This document shows positions 303 through 15,004 of a stretch of 29,149 nt of DNA, piece by piece (within the stretch, counting starts at the first letter, position 1; each line of letters begins with the position of its first letter). Both the position numbers and the translations under genes were made by a program. The stretch comes from a virus: positions 1 through 29,149 of the IMG/VR virus record IMGVR_UViG_3300009175_000060; one strand, given 5' to 3'. Under the pieces are notes generated by a model. It did not search any database. It was not told the DNA's origin and saw nothing but the letters and a program-made list of their open reading frames with translations.

Positions 303-1196
303 CTAAAAATCTCCATCAGCGACTTGGAAACACGATAAGCCAAGCGAACGCCATAGGTCCACAACAGATTGTCTGTCATCGAACACACAGTGAACGTTGA
401 ATTTACCACGAATTTGCTGTTCATAAATTTCGCGTTTCACAATGGCATCGGAACGTTGGTCACCGGCCTTGCGCATAAACAAAAAGCTGGATGCATTGTT
501 GACTGGAATTTCAGCCTTGTCACGGAGCCAAGCTTCAGTAGCTTCACGGCAACCGTCAGTGCGGCCACTGCAAAAGATGACACCTAAATCAGCACCATTC
601 ATCAAGAAGTCTACCGTCGAGCGCACCGGATGGTTTACTAGATCTTCTCCGACTTTATGCTCGTCAAACGGTCCACGACCATTGAACAGTGCCATTGTGC
701 CGTCCAGGTCACAAATAACAACCCAGGGTAAATTTGGGTCTGACTCCGGACGTGGCTCTGGTTTATAAAGATATTGTCGGTACATGCGACGGATAACTTT
801 TTCACCGACATAGTTAGGGCGGTTCTGATCACGCCTGAGGCACTCTTCCAGGCTAACGGCTAATTTACCAGTCGTAAAGTCGATCAGTTCAAATTCATAG
901 CCTTCACGTTCAGCCATTTCACGATATTTGGGTTCGTATATGGGGCTAAGATGCGTGTTATCGACAATAACGCTATGTTCGCGCTCAAAGGCCAGTTTAA
1001 TGAGAGCGTCCCTGGTTGCATCGATGAACTTCTCGTTGCCGGGAGACCATTTGCCAGCATGTATCATGGCGCGAAGTTCGTCATTATTAATACGAACTAT
1101 TCCCGTGTTGCCATGCTCTTCAATTTTTTTCTTGGCCCAGGTTGACTTACCGCACCCAGGAAGGCCCTTGGTCATCCAAAACGTTGGTTTTTTCAC
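303..1196 (-). CDS. pseT: T4-type polynucleotide 5'-kinase / 3'-phosphatase
   Basis: Bifunctional end-healing enzyme: it phosphorylates 5'-OH ends with ATP and removes 3'-phosphates, preparing nicked RNA or DNA for ligation. In T4 it repairs host-cleaved tRNA together with an RNA ligase. The N-terminal P-loop GLPGCGKSTWA and the HAD phosphatase motif DLDGTMA (about residues 165-171) are both present, and the C-terminus CFQVADGDF closely matches the T4 enzyme's ending. I use the GTG at 1196 (VKKPTFW...), which gives 297 residues (T4 enzyme 301) and puts the P-loop at the same distance from the start. The ATG at 1211 lies inside the -10 box of the promoter and cannot be used from that transcript. 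No Shine-Dalgarno is present, and the mRNA is predicted leaderless. No RNA ligase partner is in the window. Confidence 0.95.
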   Translation of the reverse strand: MKKPTFWMTKGLPGCGKSTWAKKKIEEHGNTGIVRINNDELRAMIHAGKWSPGNEKFIDATRDALIKLAFEREHSVIVDNTHLSPIYEPKYREMAEREGYEFELIDFTTGKLAVSLEECLRRDQNRPNYVGEKVIRRMYRQYLYKPEPRPESDPNLPWVVICDLDGTMALFNGRGPFDEHKVGEDLVNHPVRSTVDFLMNGADLGVIFCSGRTDGCREATEAWLRDKAEIPVNNASSFLFMRKAGDQRSDAIVKREIYEQQIRGKFNVHCVFDDRQSVVDLWRSLGLSCFQVADGDF

Positions 1197-1201
1197 ATTA
1201 C

Positions 1202-1230
1202 ATTTTATCATGGACTGCAGTGCCTGTCAA
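1202..1230 (-). promoter_or_regulatory. Promoter for Pnkp operon, leaderless geometry
   Basis: TTGACA, 17-bp spacer, TAAAAT with TGA just before the -10 (extended -10). The GTG start of Pnkp follows after only 5 nt, so transcription would begin at about the start codon. A second TTGACA lies 8 bp further upstream, and the -35 region touches the stop codon of the upstream gene. Confidence 0.8.
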
Positions 1231-1625: not shown

Positions 1626-2075
1626 TTAATGTGAGAGGGATTCCAAATAAGTAACAGCTCGTTTGCTGTTCTTAAAAGTTTTGGTTTTGTTGCCATCTGC
1701 CGATATCATGTAAATTTCATATTTGGTAAGAAAATTCTTGACAAATTGGATGGCGTGTTTGATAGCGATTGGGTTTGGCCATTTACCAGTTTCAATATGA
1801 ACAACACCGTAAGTTTCGTCGAGAGGAGAAGTTTCTTCAAACCATCTAACCCAGCCTTTCGGGATATCATGACCAACACTTATGCCATGATCTTTAAATA
1901 AGTGAAGGTGGATATTAGCATCTGGATGGGCATTACCGTCTACCATTCGACCTTCAGGGTCTATCAAACCCCATTTGTGGTAAGTTGGATAAATGTGCGC
2001 TTTTTCCGTCAAGCTTTCGTTTAGTTTTTTGTTCAAAAATGCGATGGCTTCGGTAAACTGGATGAAAGTTTTCAT
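1626..2075 (-). CDS. Small protein with capsid-targeting-like N-terminus and a domain shared with the 3226-4731 gene
   Basis: 149 residues. The N-terminus MKTFIQFTEA resembles the T4 internal-protein capsid-targeting peptide MKTYQEFIAEA, which the prohead protease removes after (L/I)-x-E. FTE|A, LNE|S and LTE|K occur within the first 26 residues. From about residue 33 on the protein matches the N-terminal domain of the divergent 3226-4731 product: W/GWI(D)xxG near the start, GW(V/I)R in the middle, (H/W)PNxxA and a final F-x-N-x-x-x-A. Function unknown; packaging in the virion is inferred. The ATG overlaps the stop of the ADP-ribosyltransferase gene (ATGA) and has no Shine-Dalgarno, so translation is probably coupled. 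Confidence 0.75.
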   Translation of the reverse strand: MKTFIQFTEAIAFLNKKLNESLTEKAHIYPTYHKWGLIDPEGRMVDGNAHPDANIHLHLFKDHGISVGHDIPKGWVRWFEETSPLDETYGVVHIETGKWPNPIAIKHAIQFVKNFLTKYEIYMISADGNKTKTFKNSKRAVTYLESLSH

Positions 2076-3199
2076 ATGTTTTTAATGAGTCGTAAAACAC
2101 GTTCAGCGTAGTCGTCCACAGCTTTTTTATGCTGGTAGGGATCTGTGATTTTGTTGATATCACGAACGATATTGCTTAAATTAGCATAGTCTGCACCAAT
2201 CTTTTTGGACACCAGCTTGGCATATTTTTGCTTAGCCCTTTCATCAGAAAACTGATACAGGATGTCAAACCAATGTGGTTTTTGAATACGTGTGTCGGCG
2301 GTACTCCAACCGTTTTTTTCCAGGGTAGCGCTGATTTGTTCAGATATTTGGTTTAACAGCACGCTGCAATATTTGCTAATAGTACGCTGATGTTCTGGTG
2401 TGAAAATCCCGTAATACGTTAACATTGAACCAGGCATGTTAACATGAACGTCTATCGTATGATAATCAGAAAACTTGAAAGTGCTGTCGCCAGCTGTAGC
2501 ATGAACTACAACTTTTGGTTTGGCTAAATGGTTAGACAACAGCTTGAAAATGTGTTCACGCACTTCAACGGAAAAATCATCAAAGTGATGAAGAATGAAT
2601 GTTAATTTCTTACCGGCAATATCATCATCTGAGAGTTTTCCCGGTTTCAAGCCCATCAATTCTTTTTCAGCCGTATCACGATCCTGGATAGAGTGTTTGA
2701 ATGGGACTAATGTTTGTGCGATACTGATTTTATACGCTCCAGGCGGCAAAATCACCTCGTCTTCATGAGCAAATTCAGACTTATTAACATCAATACCAAC
2801 ACCAGCAGCAATGGTTGTCTTAAGAATTATCCCTCGAAAACCTATCATATAGTCACGGTTTTTTTGCTTTTCTGTTTCATCGCGCATCAAATCTTTGCTT
2901 AAAAAATAAGTCGGTCTAGTTATTGCAAAAACTTTGGCTTCCGATTCACTGCGGCTCCATGATGTAATGCTAGTGGTATTGATGGTTCCTGATTTGGCTT
3001 CGGCTACGATTTTGTTGTAGTCTTCTTCATTCCTGACATTTATACCTCTATAAACGACGCCACCGCTAAAAGGATAATCTTTTAACAAGATCTTTACGAT
3101 ATCTTCGTCAGGCCATTTGTCAAGGTTTTGGTGTGTATACTTTTCCAACCAGGCGTCTGCCTTGTTAGATTCGGTTAAATATCTGATAAAAGTTTTCAC
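2072..3199 (-). CDS. ADP-ribosyltransferase, probably virion-packaged (Alt-like)
   Basis: 375 residues, GTG start. An R-S-E class arginine-type ADP-ribosyltransferase core is visible: Y50-R51-G52, then S77-ITSWS (residues 77-82) followed by A88 and F91-A92, and the ExE motif E146-D-E148 in HEDEVILPPG, very like MEVILPRG of T4 Alt. Such phage enzymes transfer ADP-ribose from NAD+ to host RNA polymerase or other proteins. The N-terminus MKTFIRYLTES looks like a T4 capsid-targeting peptide with an LTE|S protease site, which suggests packaging and injection like Alt. Residues 190-375 are a second domain I do not recognise. No Shine-Dalgarno; the GTG is 5 nt after a TAAATA element. The next gene is translationally coupled. 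Confidence 0.82.
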   Translation of the reverse strand: MKTFIRYLTESNKADAWLEKYTHQNLDKWPDEDIVKILLKDYPFSGGVVYRGINVRNEEDYNKIVAEAKSGTINTTSITSWSRSESEAKVFAITRPTYFLSKDLMRDETEKQKNRDYMIGFRGIILKTTIAAGVGIDVNKSEFAHEDEVILPPGAYKISIAQTLVPFKHSIQDRDTAEKELMGLKPGKLSDDDIAGKKLTFILHHFDDFSVEVREHIFKLLSNHLAKPKVVVHATAGDSTFKFSDYHTIDVHVNMPGSMLTYYGIFTPEHQRTISKYCSVLLNQISEQISATLEKNGWSTADTRIQKPHWFDILYQFSDERAKQKYAKLVSKKIGADYANLSNIVRDINKITDPYQHKKAVDDYAERVLRLIKNI

Positions 3200-3202
3200 T
3201 CA

Positions 3203-3222
3203 GATATTTATTGCTAAATATC
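3203..3222. promoter_or_regulatory. Palindromic, bidirectional late-type promoter
   Basis: A perfect 8-bp inverted repeat (GATATTTA, loop TTGC, TAAATATC) fills the 26-bp gap between two divergent genes. Each arm presents TAAATA outward, 5 nt before the GTG at 3199 (minus) and 5 nt before the ATG at 3226 (plus). T4 late promoters use TATAAATA about 5 nt before +1, so both transcripts would start at the start codon. Whether it acts as promoter, operator or both is inference. Confidence 0.55.
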
Positions 3223-3225
3223 AGC

Positions 3226-4731
3226 ATGGATTTTTTCACCTTCCCTGACCACGGCTGGATCAATAAAAAAGGTAAGTTTTTACGTGCTGGTAACGGAGAC
3301 TTACATCATGACGAGGTGGCCCAAGAGTTTGGAAAGAACGGTGAAGACCACGCTTTAAGGTCTGGCTGGATTCGTTTTTCTGTTAGTAAGCCACGGCTGT
3401 CGGGATTCGGATCGACAGGTCATGAATTAGCCCTTGAATTTTATGTGGACAATCACCCCAACATCAACGCACTAGTGCAAGCCATCAAAGAATGGGACGG
3501 CGAAAACCTCCATATAGATGCTTGGAGTGGCAATACACGGCAAAACAAACATTTCATCAACATCAATGATGCCATAAGATGGATCAACGAAATCACTCAT
3601 TTATCAGAGGCTTTGCTCAGTTTTAAGGGTTGGTTGATCCAAGAATCAGCAGGAGCGGCCCGAATCATTTATGTTGGAGAAGGCTCCGAAGATGACGATG
3701 AAGACGAAAACATTGTTGAATATCAAAAACAAGCATGGGATATTGCCAAATCGTCTCCTATCAATATTTTAAGGGACAAGAATTTAAATTCGGTGGCTCT
3801 GGTTGGTGACGAGGTGGCTGGTGCACTATTCGACGCATGGAATCACGAGGAATACTCGTTTGATGTAGTAGTATCGCCAAAGTTCCAGCAGCGTGGAATT
3901 GGCAAACAATTGATTGATATCGCTATGGAAGCTTTCCGTATGGATTCAGACGGTTACGACAATCCACACGTAAAAGCTGAAGTGGCTAATAAAAATCTGA
4001 TTCCTTTGTTAACTAGAATGGGATTTAAACAGACAGCGGTGTCTGGTGGCATCACCGTTATGATGTACGGATCGCTGGATGAAGCTGCTATTCATACTAA
4101 TACTTCCGGTATTCGCACGGCTCTCACCAGCATCAAATCTAAATTGATAGGCCACGACCACGGAAATTTAGAGATAGAAGAAATTTTGAACCAAGCACTG
4201 AAACCTTGGAAAGCTAAACTCATCAGAAGTTTTGATGGAGAGTCGGGTGACCCCAATCTGGCTCGGGTTTACATCACTCATGCTGCTGTATTGGAAAACG
4301 GTGGTATCGAAATCTGTTATGATGATAACTTTTACAGAAACTTCGATGACGACACTGATTGGGATACCTTCATGAACGTGATTGTTAAACTAGTAGCACA
4401 TGAACAAGTCCACATCGGCCAGTTCAATCGAATTTCCATCAAACACGACAATTATCGTTTCCAGCAGATCATCAAGAAGCTTGAACAAGACCCCAGTAAA
4501 TGTTCGGACTATTTGGGCAGCAAAACTGAGATGATGGCCTTTGCGCGAGAGGCAGCGGAAGAATTCCATCAGCTTGGTTACACACGTACCGACATTTTGA
4601 AAGCCGCTCGCAACCCTTTCAGGAGCGATATGCGCTCAGAATCCCACGTCTTTTGGACTTATATCGGCTATTTTGAACCAGGAGACGCAGCTCTAAAGGG
4701 CTTCCTCAAATATCTGATCCAATACGCTTAG
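3226..4731 (+). CDS. Multidomain protein: paralogous N-domain, GNAT acetyltransferase, HExxH metallopeptidase
   Basis: 501 residues from the ATG at 3226; a TTG at 3211 is in frame but lies in the palindrome. Domains: residues 1-125 repeat the domain of the 1626-2075 gene (GWI near 10-12, GWIRF 47-51, HPN 77-79); 131-141 LSFKGWLIQES looks like an internal capsid-targeting peptide with an IQE|S cleavage site; 155-165 is an acidic linker; about 165-282 is a GNAT fold with the acetyl-CoA loop QQRGIGKQLI (221-230); 285-501 is a putative zinc peptidase with H392-E-Q-V-H396 and a likely third ligand E435. This order reads as a fusion of a small virion protein with a packaged GNAT-peptidase. Substrates are unknown. 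Its stop overlaps the convergent DUF1152 gene by 4 bases. Confidence 0.8.
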   Translation: MDFFTFPDHGWINKKGKFLRAGNGDLHHDEVAQEFGKNGEDHALRSGWIRFSVSKPRLSGFGSTGHELALEFYVDNHPNINALVQAIKEWDGENLHIDAWSGNTRQNKHFININDAIRWINEITHLSEALLSFKGWLIQESAGAARIIYVGEGSEDDDEDENIVEYQKQAWDIAKSSPINILRDKNLNSVALVGDEVAGALFDAWNHEEYSFDVVVSPKFQQRGIGKQLIDIAMEAFRMDSDGYDNPHVKAEVANKNLIPLLTRMGFKQTAVSGGITVMMYGSLDEAAIHTNTSGIRTALTSIKSKLIGHDHGNLEIEEILNQALKPWKAKLIRSFDGESGDPNLARVYITHAAVLENGGIEICYDDNFYRNFDDDTDWDTFMNVIVKLVAHEQVHIGQFNRISIKHDNYRFQQIIKKLEQDPSKCSDYLGSKTEMMAFAREAAEEFHQLGYTRTDILKAARNPFRSDMRSESHVFWTYIGYFEPGDAALKGFLKYLIQYA

Positions 4732-5552
4732 AGTGGTATCACTTTCTTGTCACGTTCCCTGGTCACAACACCACGATATTTGATGAGTGATTCCGTGATG
4801 GTCTTGCAGTCCTTGATGTGTGGAATGATTTTGTTATTCTTGACAATACCGGAGTGCCGGAAAAACCAATAAATTCCCATCAATGGGCTTACGAAGGCCT
4901 CGTGAGGGGTATCGAAAACCATTGCGGCCAGGTTAGGGTCTCCAACCCTTAGATCGCCAAACTGGCCTTCTACAGACGCTATCACCCGTGTTTGGATGTG
5001 CGATTTCCTAATATTGATCGAGCTTTCCACGGCATCTTTATAACAGGCATACTCAGGTGTACCACCGATGAGCGAGCAAGAACCATAAAAAGCGCCATTT
5101 TTTGTTAGTTGTGCGATGTTTTCCAATACACGGTAATGGTTCATGCCCTCGTCGGTTTCGGAGCCAAAACCACTGCACACCACAATTTTATGAGGGGCAT
5201 CCAGCTGGTCCATTGCCGCCAGAGTTACAAAATCTTGAAGAACGGTTCCTGGGTCTACTTCATCACCATGCATCAGACAGTCTACTCCGCCATCCACACC
5301 GATGATAGTATCGATGCAATGCTCATCTACGATAGCTTTTAATGAAGCGGCAAGCGATTTGGGACCTTCGCGATTTGAAAGCTGATAAAACGGCTTATAT
5401 TTGGCCATGCTTTCTACCTCATTAGAGATATTGGCAAACACAGCTTCACTTCTAATAGCTTCGTGAATTGGAATAGCGCCAAAAATATCGTAGCCGCCAC
5501 CCAGCCCAAGATATAAAGTTTGAAAGGTTCCTGGAAGTTTTGGTAAATTCAT
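4728..5552 (-). CDS. DUF1152 domain protein
   Basis: 274 residues, about the length of stand-alone DUF1152 proteins. Seen: the N-terminal glycine-rich LYLGLGGGYDIFGAIP, the family signature GVDGGVDCLMHGDE (about residues 86-99) followed by LQDFVTLAA, and CSGFGSETDEGM further on. The family occurs in archaea and bacteria; I know of no established reaction, and the glycine-rich start suggests a nucleotide-binding fold. It is unusual as a phage gene. It is the last gene of the 6835-4728 operon: its ATG shares one base with the preceding stop (TAATG). The 3' end overlaps the convergent GNAT-peptidase gene. Confidence 0.8.
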   Translation of the reverse strand: MNLPKLPGTFQTLYLGLGGGYDIFGAIPIHEAIRSEAVFANISNEVESMAKYKPFYQLSNREGPKSLAASLKAIVDEHCIDTIIGVDGGVDCLMHGDEVDPGTVLQDFVTLAAMDQLDAPHKIVVCSGFGSETDEGMNHYRVLENIAQLTKNGAFYGSCSLIGGTPEYACYKDAVESSINIRKSHIQTRVIASVEGQFGDLRVGDPNLAAMVFDTPHEAFVSPLMGIYWFFRHSGIVKNNKIIPHIKDCKTITESLIKYRGVVTRERDKKVIPL

Positions 5553-5884
5553 TAATTAATCCATTCGGTTGGCGTTTCTATCCAGGCGGTTGGTAACTCT
5601 ACAAGTTCATAAAATTTGTCCATTTCGTAAATATGGCACAAGTCAAGCAAACAATCATCGTGGTCGATGTCGTCGAATTCTATGCAAAGTTCAATACCAA
5701 CATCAGTGTAACAGTGATCCACAATTAAGCCAACTGATCCACGCGGTATAACAACAGTGTCTTCGTCATTTTCACCGCACGAAAGTGTGATTGGAACTTT
5801 TGTGGTAACATGCTTATCAATCAAATTACTTAAATATTCAGTTCGTTCGTCAAGGTCTTGGATATCTTCGAATTTGCTAAACAT
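5552..5884 (-). CDS. Conserved phage hypothetical protein (110 aa)
   Basis: I start at the ATG at 5884, 6 nt after the upstream stop and preceded by TAGG. A longer frame to 6031 would run through the end of the upstream gene. The product is acidic, with an all-beta look: a TVVIPRGSVGLIVDHC segment, then IELCIEFDD and DHDDCLLD. The 'IPRGSxGxIVD' stretch resembles small SH3/KOW-like beta barrels seen in phage hypotheticals, but I cannot assign a function. Middle gene of a four-gene operon, one-base overlap with the DUF1152 gene. Confidence 0.7.
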   Translation of the reverse strand: MFSKFEDIQDLDERTEYLSNLIDKHVTTKVPITLSCGENDEDTVVIPRGSVGLIVDHCYTDVGIELCIEFDDIDHDDCLLDLCHIYEMDKFYELVELPTAWIETPTEWIN

Positions 5885-5892
5885 AAACCTAT

Positions 5893-6519
5893 CTATCTGT
5901 TGCGAGCGCGATATGTCCTTTGCTGTTGGGCTACACGATAATCTGAAACTGCTCGCATCACTTCTATGTTGGGGATTTGCATGGGCGACAACTTCATAAG
6001 TGCATCCATCACCCGTTTCATTGCCAGCCATTCGGCACGGCTACCTTCAAAAGGCGTATCCCATGTCAAAAACGTGAAATAAGCCTGGTTGGAGCTACCC
6101 TCTGGAAGCGGACAGGTGTGAAGATGCTTATGAACTCGTCGAACGACTTTATTAGTGATTTTGGAGATGGGAATTTGCTTATATACAACGTCTCCCCATC
6201 GTTTATGAACAAGGTTTTTGAAACGTGTGGTTGCTAATCGTTCTTTGACGGCTTCAAACCAGTCGGCAGGAACTTTGTAATAGTCAATAATCCTCTCATC
6301 GCTTTCTTGTGTCTCATCTGGTTCGATTTTTTCAAGAACTTCTGCGGTGGCCATCTGCATGCCGAGAGAAAAACCCATTTCATATGCATCATGAAATGGG
6401 GCGACATCCATTTTGGCATTTCTAATGAAGTCCATAGGCAATTTTGCTTGGATGAATGCTGTTTCTACACCGGCCACAAATTTTTGGGCTATCATCGCCT
6501 GGTTGTCCGTGCTAGCCAT
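5893..6519 (-). CDS. Conserved phage hypothetical protein (208 aa)
   Basis: 208 residues. The central part (VPADWFEAVKERLATTRF, then VHKRWGDVVYKQIPISKI and CPLPEG) resembles a protein often seen next to small unknown genes in large phages; no enzyme motif is visible. The C-terminus is basic (QQQRTYRARNR), which may contact nucleic acid. The ATG at 6519 lies 8 bases inside the end of the upstream gene, so translation is likely coupled. Function unknown. Confidence 0.75.
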   Translation of the reverse strand: MASTDNQAMIAQKFVAGVETAFIQAKLPMDFIRNAKMDVAPFHDAYEMGFSLGMQMATAEVLEKIEPDETQESDERIIDYYKVPADWFEAVKERLATTRFKNLVHKRWGDVVYKQIPISKITNKVVRRVHKHLHTCPLPEGSSNQAYFTFLTWDTPFEGSRAEWLAMKRVMDALMKLSPMQIPNIEVMRAVSDYRVAQQQRTYRARNR

Positions 6520-7294: not shown

Positions 7295-8704
7295 TTATCC
7301 TTTCCTTGTCATGACCTGTTCAGCCGACTTGTCGGGGCGTTCACGCTTGAAGACCGGGAAACGCAAGCTCCAAATCCGTTCGCCCTTGGCATTGTAAGTA
7401 ATGACTTCGCGCTTTGAGGCATCCAGAACTTCACACGGCTCCTGGTATTCAATTTCAATGACCGTGTCGGCCAGCGTTCCGAGATTGTTCTGGCTCCAAT
7501 ATTTGTCGCGGTCAGATGGTTTTAAACCAGAGCCAACCTTGCCTTCAACGTAGTACAGCTCTCCGTCTTTCTCGACGTATCCCTTGAACAGGAGCTTGCC
7601 ACAAGTATTGTAGGCCCATCCATCCTGGTCACCGCGTTCTGCACCCGTTACCACGACATCAGCCTCTTCAATCGGCTTCCATTTCATCCAATTGCTGTCG
7701 CGTTTGCCGTCGAAACGGTAGACTGAGCCAGGTTTCTTAAAGACAACGCCTTCGAAGCCCTGTTCCACGAACAATTCAAAAATGGCCTTGAATTCTTCAC
7801 GATTATGAACCAACACCGAATTGGTCCCGAGGACTAATGGATTGTTGATTTCGGCGATGCATTCGTTGGCCAGCGCCTTGCGCCGTTCAATCGGCCATGC
7901 CTCATCTTTTCCGGCTGAGTTCCAGTGGTTCAGCGGCATTGCATCGAAGATGAAATACTTCATCTTATCGCGCATCGGATGAATCTTTTGGGTACGGGTG
8001 ACAGCGTTGGTGAGGGTAAAATCTTCTGGAATCCCGAACTCGCCGTCCAGGACCACAGATTTCAGGCCGGATGCTTTGATAGCTGCACCGATGAGTTCCC
8101 AGTTCCAGAACGGTTTCATTTCACGGCTGTAGGCTGTCGGTTCCCCGGTTTCGTCCACAATCATGACAGCACGGACACCATCAAATTTGGTTTCCACATA
8201 TTGGGGGAAGGTGATGGTGTTGAATTTGGGGTCGGCCTTGGCGTCGAATTTCTTGCATAAATATACGCGGGAATCCGCCATTAACCCAGGAAAATATCGG
8301 GCAAGTGTTCTGGATGCAATCCCAATACGGAGGTCGCGATTGAAAATTGCGAAAAAATACTTACGAGGAGTGGGCGGTAATGCCTCCAACACCATTTGCA
8401 TGGTTCGTTTGGCATCATTACCAGATAGCGTCCTTTGAGACATTGCATCAAGGGCATTTTTGACGCTGCCCCAAATAGCCGTCAACTGCTCGTCGGACAT
8501 CTCAACATCAGCGCTGGTAGTCGGCATCTCCGGAGCCATGTAATAGTTGGTTTTGGGGTCGTAAGTATAACGCACCATTTCGCCAAATGTGGAATCTCCA
8601 ACGGTCTTTTTGATAAGACCTTCCAACAGCGCGATTTTGCCGTTAGTGCTGCTGGTGGCTGCAATACTGTCTAGTGTTTTAAAAATGATACCAAAATCAC
8701 CCAT
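7295..8704 (-). CDS. ATP-dependent DNA ligase
   Basis: Seals nicks in duplex DNA via a ligase-adenylate intermediate in replication and repair. 469 residues, close to T4 gp30 (487). Seen: motif I K173-F-D-G176 in ETKFDGVRA (Lys173 adenylated), motif III VVLDGEFG (about 217-224), motif IV EGVVFKKP (318-325) and motif V WMKWKP (339-344), followed by the OB-fold part (YVEGKVGSGL...). Residues 1-160 form the helical DNA-binding N-domain found in T4-type ligases. The ATG is 6 nt after a TATAAT box with no Shine-Dalgarno, so the message is predicted leaderless. Together with Pnkp it gives the phage end-healing and sealing capacity. Confidence 0.95.
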   Translation of the reverse strand: MGDFGIIFKTLDSIAATSSTNGKIALLEGLIKKTVGDSTFGEMVRYTYDPKTNYYMAPEMPTTSADVEMSDEQLTAIWGSVKNALDAMSQRTLSGNDAKRTMQMVLEALPPTPRKYFFAIFNRDLRIGIASRTLARYFPGLMADSRVYLCKKFDAKADPKFNTITFPQYVETKFDGVRAVMIVDETGEPTAYSREMKPFWNWELIGAAIKASGLKSVVLDGEFGIPEDFTLTNAVTRTQKIHPMRDKMKYFIFDAMPLNHWNSAGKDEAWPIERRKALANECIAEINNPLVLGTNSVLVHNREEFKAIFELFVEQGFEGVVFKKPGSVYRFDGKRDSNWMKWKPIEEADVVVTGAERGDQDGWAYNTCGKLLFKGYVEKDGELYYVEGKVGSGLKPSDRDKYWSQNNLGTLADTVIEIEYQEPCEVLDASKREVITYNAKGERIWSLRFPVFKRERPDKSAEQVMTRKG

Positions 8705-13601: not shown

Positions 13602-14021
13602 ATGGCTCGCTCCAAACCACCACATCAGGCTAGGATAGGCAAACGAGTTTTTAACCTTCAAGATACCGCCAGCGAACCATATACCCTCACCACAGTTGAT
13701 ATCCGCTATTGGTTCATCATCATCAATAATCTACTTTTCGATGGGGCGCTTCCGGCCTTCCGACGTATACACCTTAAACGCTTGAAATCTTGGGGATATT
13801 GTCTGGGGTTGACGAGCGAAAAACGCGGGAAAAAACGTTACAGTGAAATCTTCATGAACCTGGAGTATCCCAATTTCACGACATTTTTCTCGATATTAGC
13901 ACACGAAATGGTTCACCATTTTGAATGGATCAACACCGGCTCGATGAGTCACGGACCGGCGTTTTTCCAGTGGCGAACCAAAATGAGGAAGATTTTTATA
14001 CCGCTTAGAAAAAGCTATTAA
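13602..14021 (+). CDS. SprT-like zinc metallopeptidase
   Basis: 139 residues. The zinc site H101-E102-M-V-H105 in LAHEMVHHFEW and the third ligand H117 in SMSHGPAFFQW give the SprT/Spartan-like pattern HExxH...SHGxxF. YWFIIINNLLFDGALP at 36-51 matches the family's N-terminal 'lFNxxLFxGxLP' helix. SPRTN in eukaryotes cleaves DNA-protein crosslinks; the phage role is unknown but could be removal of proteins from DNA. No trailing zinc ribbon. Convergent overlap of 4 bases with the next gene. Confidence 0.88.
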   Translation: MARSKPPHQARIGKRVFNLQDTASEPYTLTTVDIRYWFIIINNLLFDGALPAFRRIHLKRLKSWGYCLGLTSEKRGKKRYSEIFMNLEYPNFTTFFSILAHEMVHHFEWINTGSMSHGPAFFQWRTKMRKIFIPLRKSY

Positions 14022-14395
14022 CCTACATCATTAGCCATTTGTTGGACTTCTTTTGCCGACCAAGTAGCTGATCTATGCGGTAAATCCATAAAGGCACCCT
14101 GGAGTGCAAGTTTTAAAATCATTCCCTCTGTCGAACTGGGGTCGACGGGGTCACTACCACAATGCATTTTTATTTTTTCCCAACCCTTGCCTGTGGCGTG
14201 GCCAACGACTTCATATTTCTTACCGTTTATCATCAACTCTGCTTCGCAACCACGAAGTTCGCTCCAGTCGTTGCGAATTTCTTTGATTTTGTATTGGCTT
14301 GCGGCTTCTTCAATCAGTTCGCTGGGGTTCATCTCGCTGATCTTACGAATGGACGCATTGATCAGGCTGTTGGAAAAGTCTTGTTCGTGGCTCAT
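14018..14395 (-). CDS. Protein with duplicated N-terminal peptide (copy 1)
   Basis: 125 residues. The first 24 residues (MSHEQD, FSNSLINASIR, KISEMNP) are almost identical to those of the gene at 14702-15004, while the rest is unrelated: here an ASQYKIKEIRNDWSELRG...ELMINGKKYEVVGHATG domain of unknown function. A conserved head on different bodies suggests a targeting peptide; LIEE|A after it fits a prohead-protease site. A TAAATA element and an AAAGG Shine-Dalgarno precede the ATG, which suggests late expression. Confidence 0.72.
   Translation of the reverse strand: MSHEQDFSNSLINASIRKISEMNPSELIEEAASQYKIKEIRNDWSELRGCEAELMINGKKYEVVGHATGKGWEKIKMHCGSDPVDPSSTEGMILKLALQGAFMDLPHRSATWSAKEVQQMANDVG
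14324..14395 (-). repeat. Duplicated 5' coding segment, copy 1
   Basis: 24 codons shared with 14933-15004: one amino-acid difference (D/N) and about six synonymous third-position changes. The shared promoter (TAAATATCC) and Shine-Dalgarno lie just upstream in both. Confidence 0.85.
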
Positions 14396-14701: not shown

Positions 14702-15004
14702 TTATTTTTTCCAATGATGGGAGATCATGGCATCGGCGTATTTAATGGCCTTCTCTTCCGTGTCAAATGGTCCTTCAGTGTCGCCGCCTTCGTAGTCATC
14801 ATCAAACGGTGCATCTTGTTCTAAAGAAACATACCAGCCAGCTTCTACGTTTCCCCATGCAAACGGGCTGTCGCTATCGATGTATGCCACATACTTGTTT
14901 TTGGGAGAGGCCTCTTCGGTTATGACGTCTTTGGGGTTCATTTCGCTGATTTTGCGAATGGACGCGTTGATCAGGCTATTAGAAAAATTTTGTTCGTGGC
15001 TCAT
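14702..15004 (-). CDS. Protein with duplicated N-terminal peptide (copy 2)
   Basis: 100 residues from the ATG at 15004; the frame stays open to 15091 but that part holds the palindrome and promoter. Residues 1-24 repeat the head of the 14018-14395 gene; ITE|E follows. The body (KYVAYIDSDSPFAWGNVEAGWYVSLEQDAPF...GPFDTEEKAIKYADAMI) looks like a small alpha/beta domain of the SPOR/DUF1508-like size, but I cannot name it. GAGGG Shine-Dalgarno and TAAATA promoter upstream. Confidence 0.72.
   Translation of the reverse strand: MSHEQNFSNSLINASIRKISEMNPKDVITEEASPKNKYVAYIDSDSPFAWGNVEAGWYVSLEQDAPFDDDYEGGDTEGPFDTEEKAIKYADAMISHHWKK
14933..15004 (-). repeat. Duplicated 5' coding segment, copy 2
   Basis: Partner of 14324-14395. 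The changes are almost all synonymous, which indicates selection on the peptide rather than a fresh duplication. Confidence 0.85.

Follow-up and report, generated by a model that had tools for sequence, protein, structure and literature searches.

Organization of the gene cluster

The IMG/VR virus record IMGVR_UViG_3300009175_000060, analyzed here over its entire length of 29,149 bases (the window) and probably a fragment of a larger virus, carries a cluster of three genes, the first of which is predicted to encode an ADP-ribosyltransferase (ART) that begins with a peptide resembling the capsid-targeting sequence (CTS) of phage T4 internal proteins (IPs). The ART gene (positions 2072 to 3199, minus strand) encodes 375 amino acids (aa). 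Its first ten residues, (M)KTFIRYLTE (3170 to 3199, minus strand), form the CTS-like peptide, or tag, and a cut after E10 is predicted to leave a mature protein starting with SNKADAW. Gene 2 (1626 to 2075, minus strand; 149 aa, ATG start), whose start overlaps the end of the ART gene by four bases, begins MKTFIQFTE↓AIAF (arrows mark putative cleavage sites); by its sequence, the shorter CTS-like peptide MKTFIQFTE, with E at position 9, spans 2049 to 2075 (minus strand). When the open reading frames (ORFs) were rederived, both genes and both peptides were found as the preliminary description had placed and read them, except that the ART gene, the peptide sequence of which stands, initiates at a GTG codon read as formyl-methionine.

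Gene 3 (3226 to 4731, plus strand), which with its internal tag-like segment had escaped the preliminary description, diverges from the ART gene. It combines an N-domain weakly similar to gene 2, the CTS-like segment MLSFKGWLIQE↓S starting at a TTG codon at 3613 (3613 to 3645, plus strand), and a GNAT acetyltransferase domain just after this tag-like junction (3766 to 4035, plus strand; Pfam PF13508, E = 2e-7). Farther along, a metallopeptidase-like motif, HEQVH, was recognized in the sequence at residues 392 to 396 (4399 to 4413, plus strand); a Pfam scan of gene 3 gave no peptidase family. Divergent late-promoter-like boxes lie at 3205 to 3220, with AATAAATA on the minus strand facing the ART gene and CTAAATA on the plus strand facing gene 3.

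Predicted ADP-ribosyltransferase encoded by the first gene

The proposal that the first gene encodes an R-S-E ADP-ribosyltransferase is supported by profile and structure comparisons, the activity itself being predicted. Seven proteins with ART domains from phages that carry the tag (see below) were combined into a profile, against which the window gene product scored 21.6 bits (E = 1.1e-5), the top score among 168 window ORFs, whereas the best of 1,000 shuffles reached 8.6 bits. Y-R51-G, S77-I-T-S80, and E146-D-E148 aligned in order and in register with the profile, with three alignments in agreement, and the earlier numbering of E148 was correct by residue count.

The ART domain was delimited by a profile hidden Markov model, an AlphaFold2 (AF2) model, and fold searches. 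As modeled, it covers residues 25 to 175 and includes these motifs (2675 to 3127, minus strand). The AF2 model made from the ART-profile alignment had a mean predicted local distance difference test (pLDDT) score of 75.6 and a predicted template modeling score of 0.71. Its top Foldseek match in the PDB was the ADP-ribosyltransferase HopU1 (probability, 0.99; E = 0.046), and VIA-align gave a top Z score of 6.8 with a root mean square deviation of 3.7 over 113 residues, the 50 entries that it listed being ARTs and ART-fold enzymes that use NAD (nicotinamide adenine dinucleotide). Because the alignment behind the model already contained ARTs, we regard the fold result as supportive and not as independent. 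In a fold search of viral models, the top match was A0A8D4KJD0, a 390-aa entry with no protein name that aligned at 47% identity; phage ADP-ribosyltransferases ranked lower. The sole PHROG match of the protein, a weak one at residues 43 to 96, was to a minor head protein family, PHROG 16619.

Capsid-targeting-like peptides of the three genes

T4-type CTSs such as MKTYQEFIAE have targeting residues at positions 4 and 7 and processing residues at positions 8 and 10 (PMC9026906). The start of the ART protein follows this pattern with F4, Y7, L8, and E10. The preliminary description had taken it for a T4-type CTS, a reading strengthened by the lines of evidence presented below: the tag on unrelated proteins, its association with the prohead protease, other tagged ARTs, and one tagged enzyme reported from purified virions. 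The peptide of gene 2 resembles the T4 signal in part. It starts with MKTF, lacks one residue relative to MKTYQEFIAE, and carries F rather than L or I at P3, with E at position 9, so that the (L/I)-x-E cut site proposed at its first E, which would close the first ten residues, is absent. CTS-like starts, for which the preliminary description had suggested a scan, were found in 2 of 47 window genes and in 0 of 560 genes of control phage DNA (Fisher P = 0.006), the control consisting of loci retrieved because of a short chance match or an unrelated gene, with the phage LR756511 (discussed below) excluded.

Starts with E at position 9 occur in other phages, and the shorter peptide of gene 2 is therefore a plausible tag variant. 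Farther into gene 2, LNE↓S at residues 18 to 20 (down to base 2016) recalls MKTFKEFTSTTTPVSTITE↓A of T4 IPI. Searches of Pfam, PHROGs, and PDB sequences gave no family match for gene 2. On inspection, gene 2 runs collinear with the gene 3 N-domain, but the comparison scored only 3 standard deviations above shuffles, with 27 of 2,000 shuffles reaching the score; the two may possibly be related. The internal segment of gene 3 suggests either that the GNAT part would be freed from the fusion by a prohead protease or that translation would restart at the TTG codon.

A family of phage proteins of about 60 aa starts with MKTFFQFMEQ, with E at position 9 (loci L136, L138, L152, L169, L197, L200, and others), and the larger records that hold this family have a prohead protease.

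Distribution of the tag among viral contigs

Viral contigs were searched for DNA encoding MKTF[hydrophobic]xF[hydrophobic]xE, and the pattern was present in at least 120 of them. Among the 121 tag matches listed, 97 lie at the start of an ORF that is at least 100 aa long. A control pattern with Q in place of E occurred in 79 contigs of the whole collection and opened ORFs of at least 100 aa in just 6; MKTFFQFMEQ, with its E one residue earlier, recurs among the Q-pattern matches. Tag-like starts in the listed loci belonged to 58 protein clusters, a few of them probably by chance. Pfam families of the tagged proteins included adenylate kinase, ADP-ribosyltransferase exoenzyme, GNAT, S-adenosylmethionine (SAM) lyase, acid-phosphatase-type HAD, and nucleotidyltransferase, among others.

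This breadth bears on the possibility that the ART and gene 2 starts are alike through a recent duplication of a gene start or through chance, with no targeting signal. The two genes are adjacent, the peptide is short, and that of gene 2 departs from the T4 consensus, all of which would suit such an origin. We nevertheless consider it very improbable, given that the two proteins are otherwise without visible similarity, that none of the control genes has such a start, and that the same tag is found on those 58 clusters among the matches listed.

Peptidase_S77 (PF03420), the family of the T4 prohead protease gp21, was detected in 11 of 33 tagged records longer than 30 kb, including all 7 of those of at least 90 kb. 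Among the Q-pattern records, 6 of the 9 whose ORF exceeds 45 aa had a prohead protease, versus 1 of the 11 with a short chance ORF only. For 51 of 134 tagged genes, TAAATA, the core of T4-like late promoters, was present in the 60 bases before the start, versus 3.4% of random 60-mers; because this background is random sequence and not matched gene starts, we use the result as supporting evidence only, in that late timing would fit a packaged effector.

A different role for the window protein would be that of a real ART made after infection and acting in the cytoplasm, as with T4 ModA and ModB, its MKTF start reflecting translation initiation or base composition. A-rich gene starts are common in phages, and T4 has in ModA and ModB two ARTs that, by annotation, act on host proteins and do not travel in the virion. 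Glutamate would not be favored by a translation effect, whereas E occupied position 10 in 34 of 40 tag-like starts that had not been selected by the scan, compared with 4.4% at background start codons. Swapping E for Q abolished most of the tag signal, and the tag co-occurs with the prohead protease. Synthesis after infection thus appears unlikely. A purely nucleotide-level cause of ATGAAAAC starts was rejected because the constrained feature is E at position 10.

In one of the tagged records (locus L095, 1572 to 3933), three consecutive tagged genes belong to one family with a GxGxFG glycine-rich loop and appear kinase-like; the one member scanned against Pfam had no match.

Tagged ADP-ribosyltransferases and a tagged virion enzyme

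The ART family PF03496 was present in 8 of 50 tagged records. ARTs elsewhere open with MKTFINFISE↓A, MKTFLSFISE↓N, MITFRNFMTE↓A, or MLTFKSYLNE↓Q and, in a diverged form, MKSFKKFVAD. Three of the four tagged ARTs scanned match an ADP-ribosyltransferase PHROG (802, which is Alt-like, 832, or 3895). The catalytic arginine of R-S-E is replaced in some tagged ART-fold proteins (YSG, HSG, or SSG in place of YRG) and is kept in the window ART. Proteins with the replacement (two in L094, at 4134 to 4943 and 5354 to 6211, and others in L224 and L225) are possibly packaged ARTs with altered catalysis.

Such replacements, together with the occurrence of some ART domains in head proteins (as in the weak match to PHROG 16619), would also suit a tag that brings the protein into the capsid for head assembly or as a resident of the head, the ART-like domain being inactive or structural. 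The window protein, on the other hand, retains R51, S77/S80, E146, and E148 in register, and T4 Alt is an active enzyme that is packaged and injected (PMC5512222). On balance, we find a structural role slightly less probable than synthesis after infection and likewise unlikely.

The nearest thing to a direct test comes from cyanophages. According to Sullivan et al. (2010; PMC3037559), the cytidylyltransferase T4-GC190 was present in purified virions of cyanophage S-SM1. Its N terminus reads MKKFSAFLNE↓A in S-SM1 and MKSFSQFLTE↓T in P-SSM2, two phages with a gp21 gene. By analogy, its presence in S-SM1 virions agrees with the reading of these starts as tags.

Further variants were found in LR756511, a 595-kb uncultured phage that holds the best relative of the tail-fiber-like gene of the window. 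It has two Peptidase_S77 genes and about ten CTS-like starts (loci L228, L235, L239, L241, L251, L255, and L259), for example, MKTFSEWLE↓A, MLSFREWCE↓Q, MKTFNQWLE↓S, and MITFSTWLE↓G. These have W at position 7, like the gene 3 segment, and mostly E at position 9, like gene 2, a resemblance in favor of regarding the gene 2 peptide and the internal segment of gene 3 as tag variants.

Comparison with T4 and other phage proteins

T4 IPI, IPII, and IPIII carry an N-terminal label of about 10 residues, MKT(Y/F)xx(F/Y)(L/I)xE, that gp21 removes by cutting behind (L/I)-x-E. Two of the three, IPII and IPIII, match the tag motif directly. The layout of gene 2 is like that of IPI, with an MKTFxxFT start and a later (L/I)-x-E (MKTFKEFTSTTTPVSTITE↓A in IPI, MKTFIQFTEAIAFLNKKLNE↓S in gene 2). 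IPI is an inhibitor of the GmrSD restriction system, and strain ECOR17 is one on which IPIII is required (PMC9391042). The T4 IPs are small proteins, whereas in the window the label sits on an ADP-ribosyltransferase. In T4 itself, the uncharacterized 54-aa gp61.1 (locus L128, 19130, minus strand) has the CTS-like start MKTFKEFIKE↓D and is a candidate packaged protein.

T4 Alt, a packaged ART that acts on RNA polymerase, is also of the R-S-E type, and the window ART is predicted to share its packaging, cleavage, and injection. Alt differs in having 682 aa, the start MELITE↓L, and no IP-type label. T4-GC190 of S-SM1 and P-SSM2 is an enzyme with an N-terminal label of the kind seen on the window ART, and gp21 is encoded in both genomes; the enzyme is a different one, and in the passages of PMC3037559 consulted its N terminus is not read as a targeting sequence. 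The MuF and polyvalent-protein ART effectors (Iyer et al. 2017; PMC5512222) are likewise phage ART domains for which packaging and injection have been predicted, but these domains are fused to head or polyvalent proteins and have no short removable peptide. The best reading is that the window ART would work like T4 Alt and be delivered like the T4 IPs, while belonging by sequence to neither.

Proposed role of the cluster

We consider it probable that the ART gene is a late gene encoding an effector packaged in the virion. MKTFIRYLTE would act as a T4-type CTS: it would dock the protein in the core of the prohead, and a gp21-like prohead protease would then remove the peptide by cutting after LTE. 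Once matured, the ADP-ribosyltransferase would enter the host with the DNA and, like T4 Alt, ADP-ribosylate a host protein as infection begins. The product of gene 2 and, probably, the acetyltransferase part of gene 3 would be packaged with the ART, and all three genes would be expressed from a divergent late promoter. For the window phage, we infer packaging, cleavage, injection, and the existence of a host target.

Several results weigh against this proposal. Besides the absent cut site in gene 2, the ART-containing alignment used for modeling, and the random background of the TAAATA comparison, they include the lack of any match for the ART protein in Pfam, NCBIfam, or PADLOC or among PDB sequences; its failure to match the Alt-like PHROGs 802 and 832 at E values up to 1; and a poor single-sequence prediction of the full protein (pLDDT, 37). 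A prohead protease gene was not found in the 29-kb record, which is a fragment, and the three cluster proteins had no relatives in GenBank phages (tblastn) or in viral contigs (8-residue patterns). Overall, the observation made in the preliminary description, of an ART and a neighboring protein with T4-like starts, was confirmed, and its interpretation as an injected effector pair gained partial support.

Other genes and affiliation of the window

A DUF1152 protein adjoins the cluster (4728 to 5552, minus strand; PF06626, E = 6e-19) and had no PHROG match. The weak matches of the window were to the 595-kb uncultured phage and to phages of Mesorhizobium, Brevundimonas, Burkholderia, and Erythrobacter. 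The polynucleotide kinase/phosphatase (303 to 1211, minus strand) has its nearest kinase, at 44%, in a 45-kb podovirus, and the nearest ligases to the ATP-dependent DNA ligase (7295 to 8704, minus strand), at about 31%, are those of SPO1-like phages; used as search queries, the window ligase and kinase yielded no near relatives.

Two neighboring genes (14021 to 14395 and 14705 to 15004, both minus strand) have their first 24 residues, MSHEQ(D/N)FSNSLINASIRKISEMNP, in common, with one protein difference and, across 81 bases, 89% DNA identity. Both are preceded by an ATAAATA box. Their mature parts are unlike each other after an EEAS/EEAAS stretch, and the shared part is possibly a second modular leader peptide. 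A search of other viral contigs did not recover this leader.

Implications for injected phage proteins

In a broader reading, to which we give an even chance, the IP-type CTS would be a general, portable label, used from cyanophages to at least one 595-kb phage, that loads sets of enzymes into the head: ADP-ribosyltransferases, acetyltransferases, nucleotide kinases, nucleotidyltransferases, and a SAM-lyase-like protein. In the window, it would also act inside the gene 3 polyprotein, where the prohead protease would release the acetyltransferase, beside the longer MSHEQ(D/N)FSNSLINASIRKISEMNP leader on two genes. In a limited search of the open-access literature, we found no paper that presents the tag as a label of general use in uncultured phages; those found deal with the T4 targeting sequence and with prohead cleavage in giant phages.

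The T4 internal proteins and Alt, the textbook phage-injected proteins, were discovered by biochemistry. If the broader reading is true, an N-terminal 10-mer would read out the injected proteins of a phage from sequence alone, and those of uncultured phages could be listed in this way. In phages other than T4, the tagged ARTs would become direct candidates for taking over the host in the manner of Alt. For tagged enzymes without a known role, among them the cytidylyltransferase of the cyanophage core set, there would be a testable site and time of action, namely, the capsid and delivery with the DNA.
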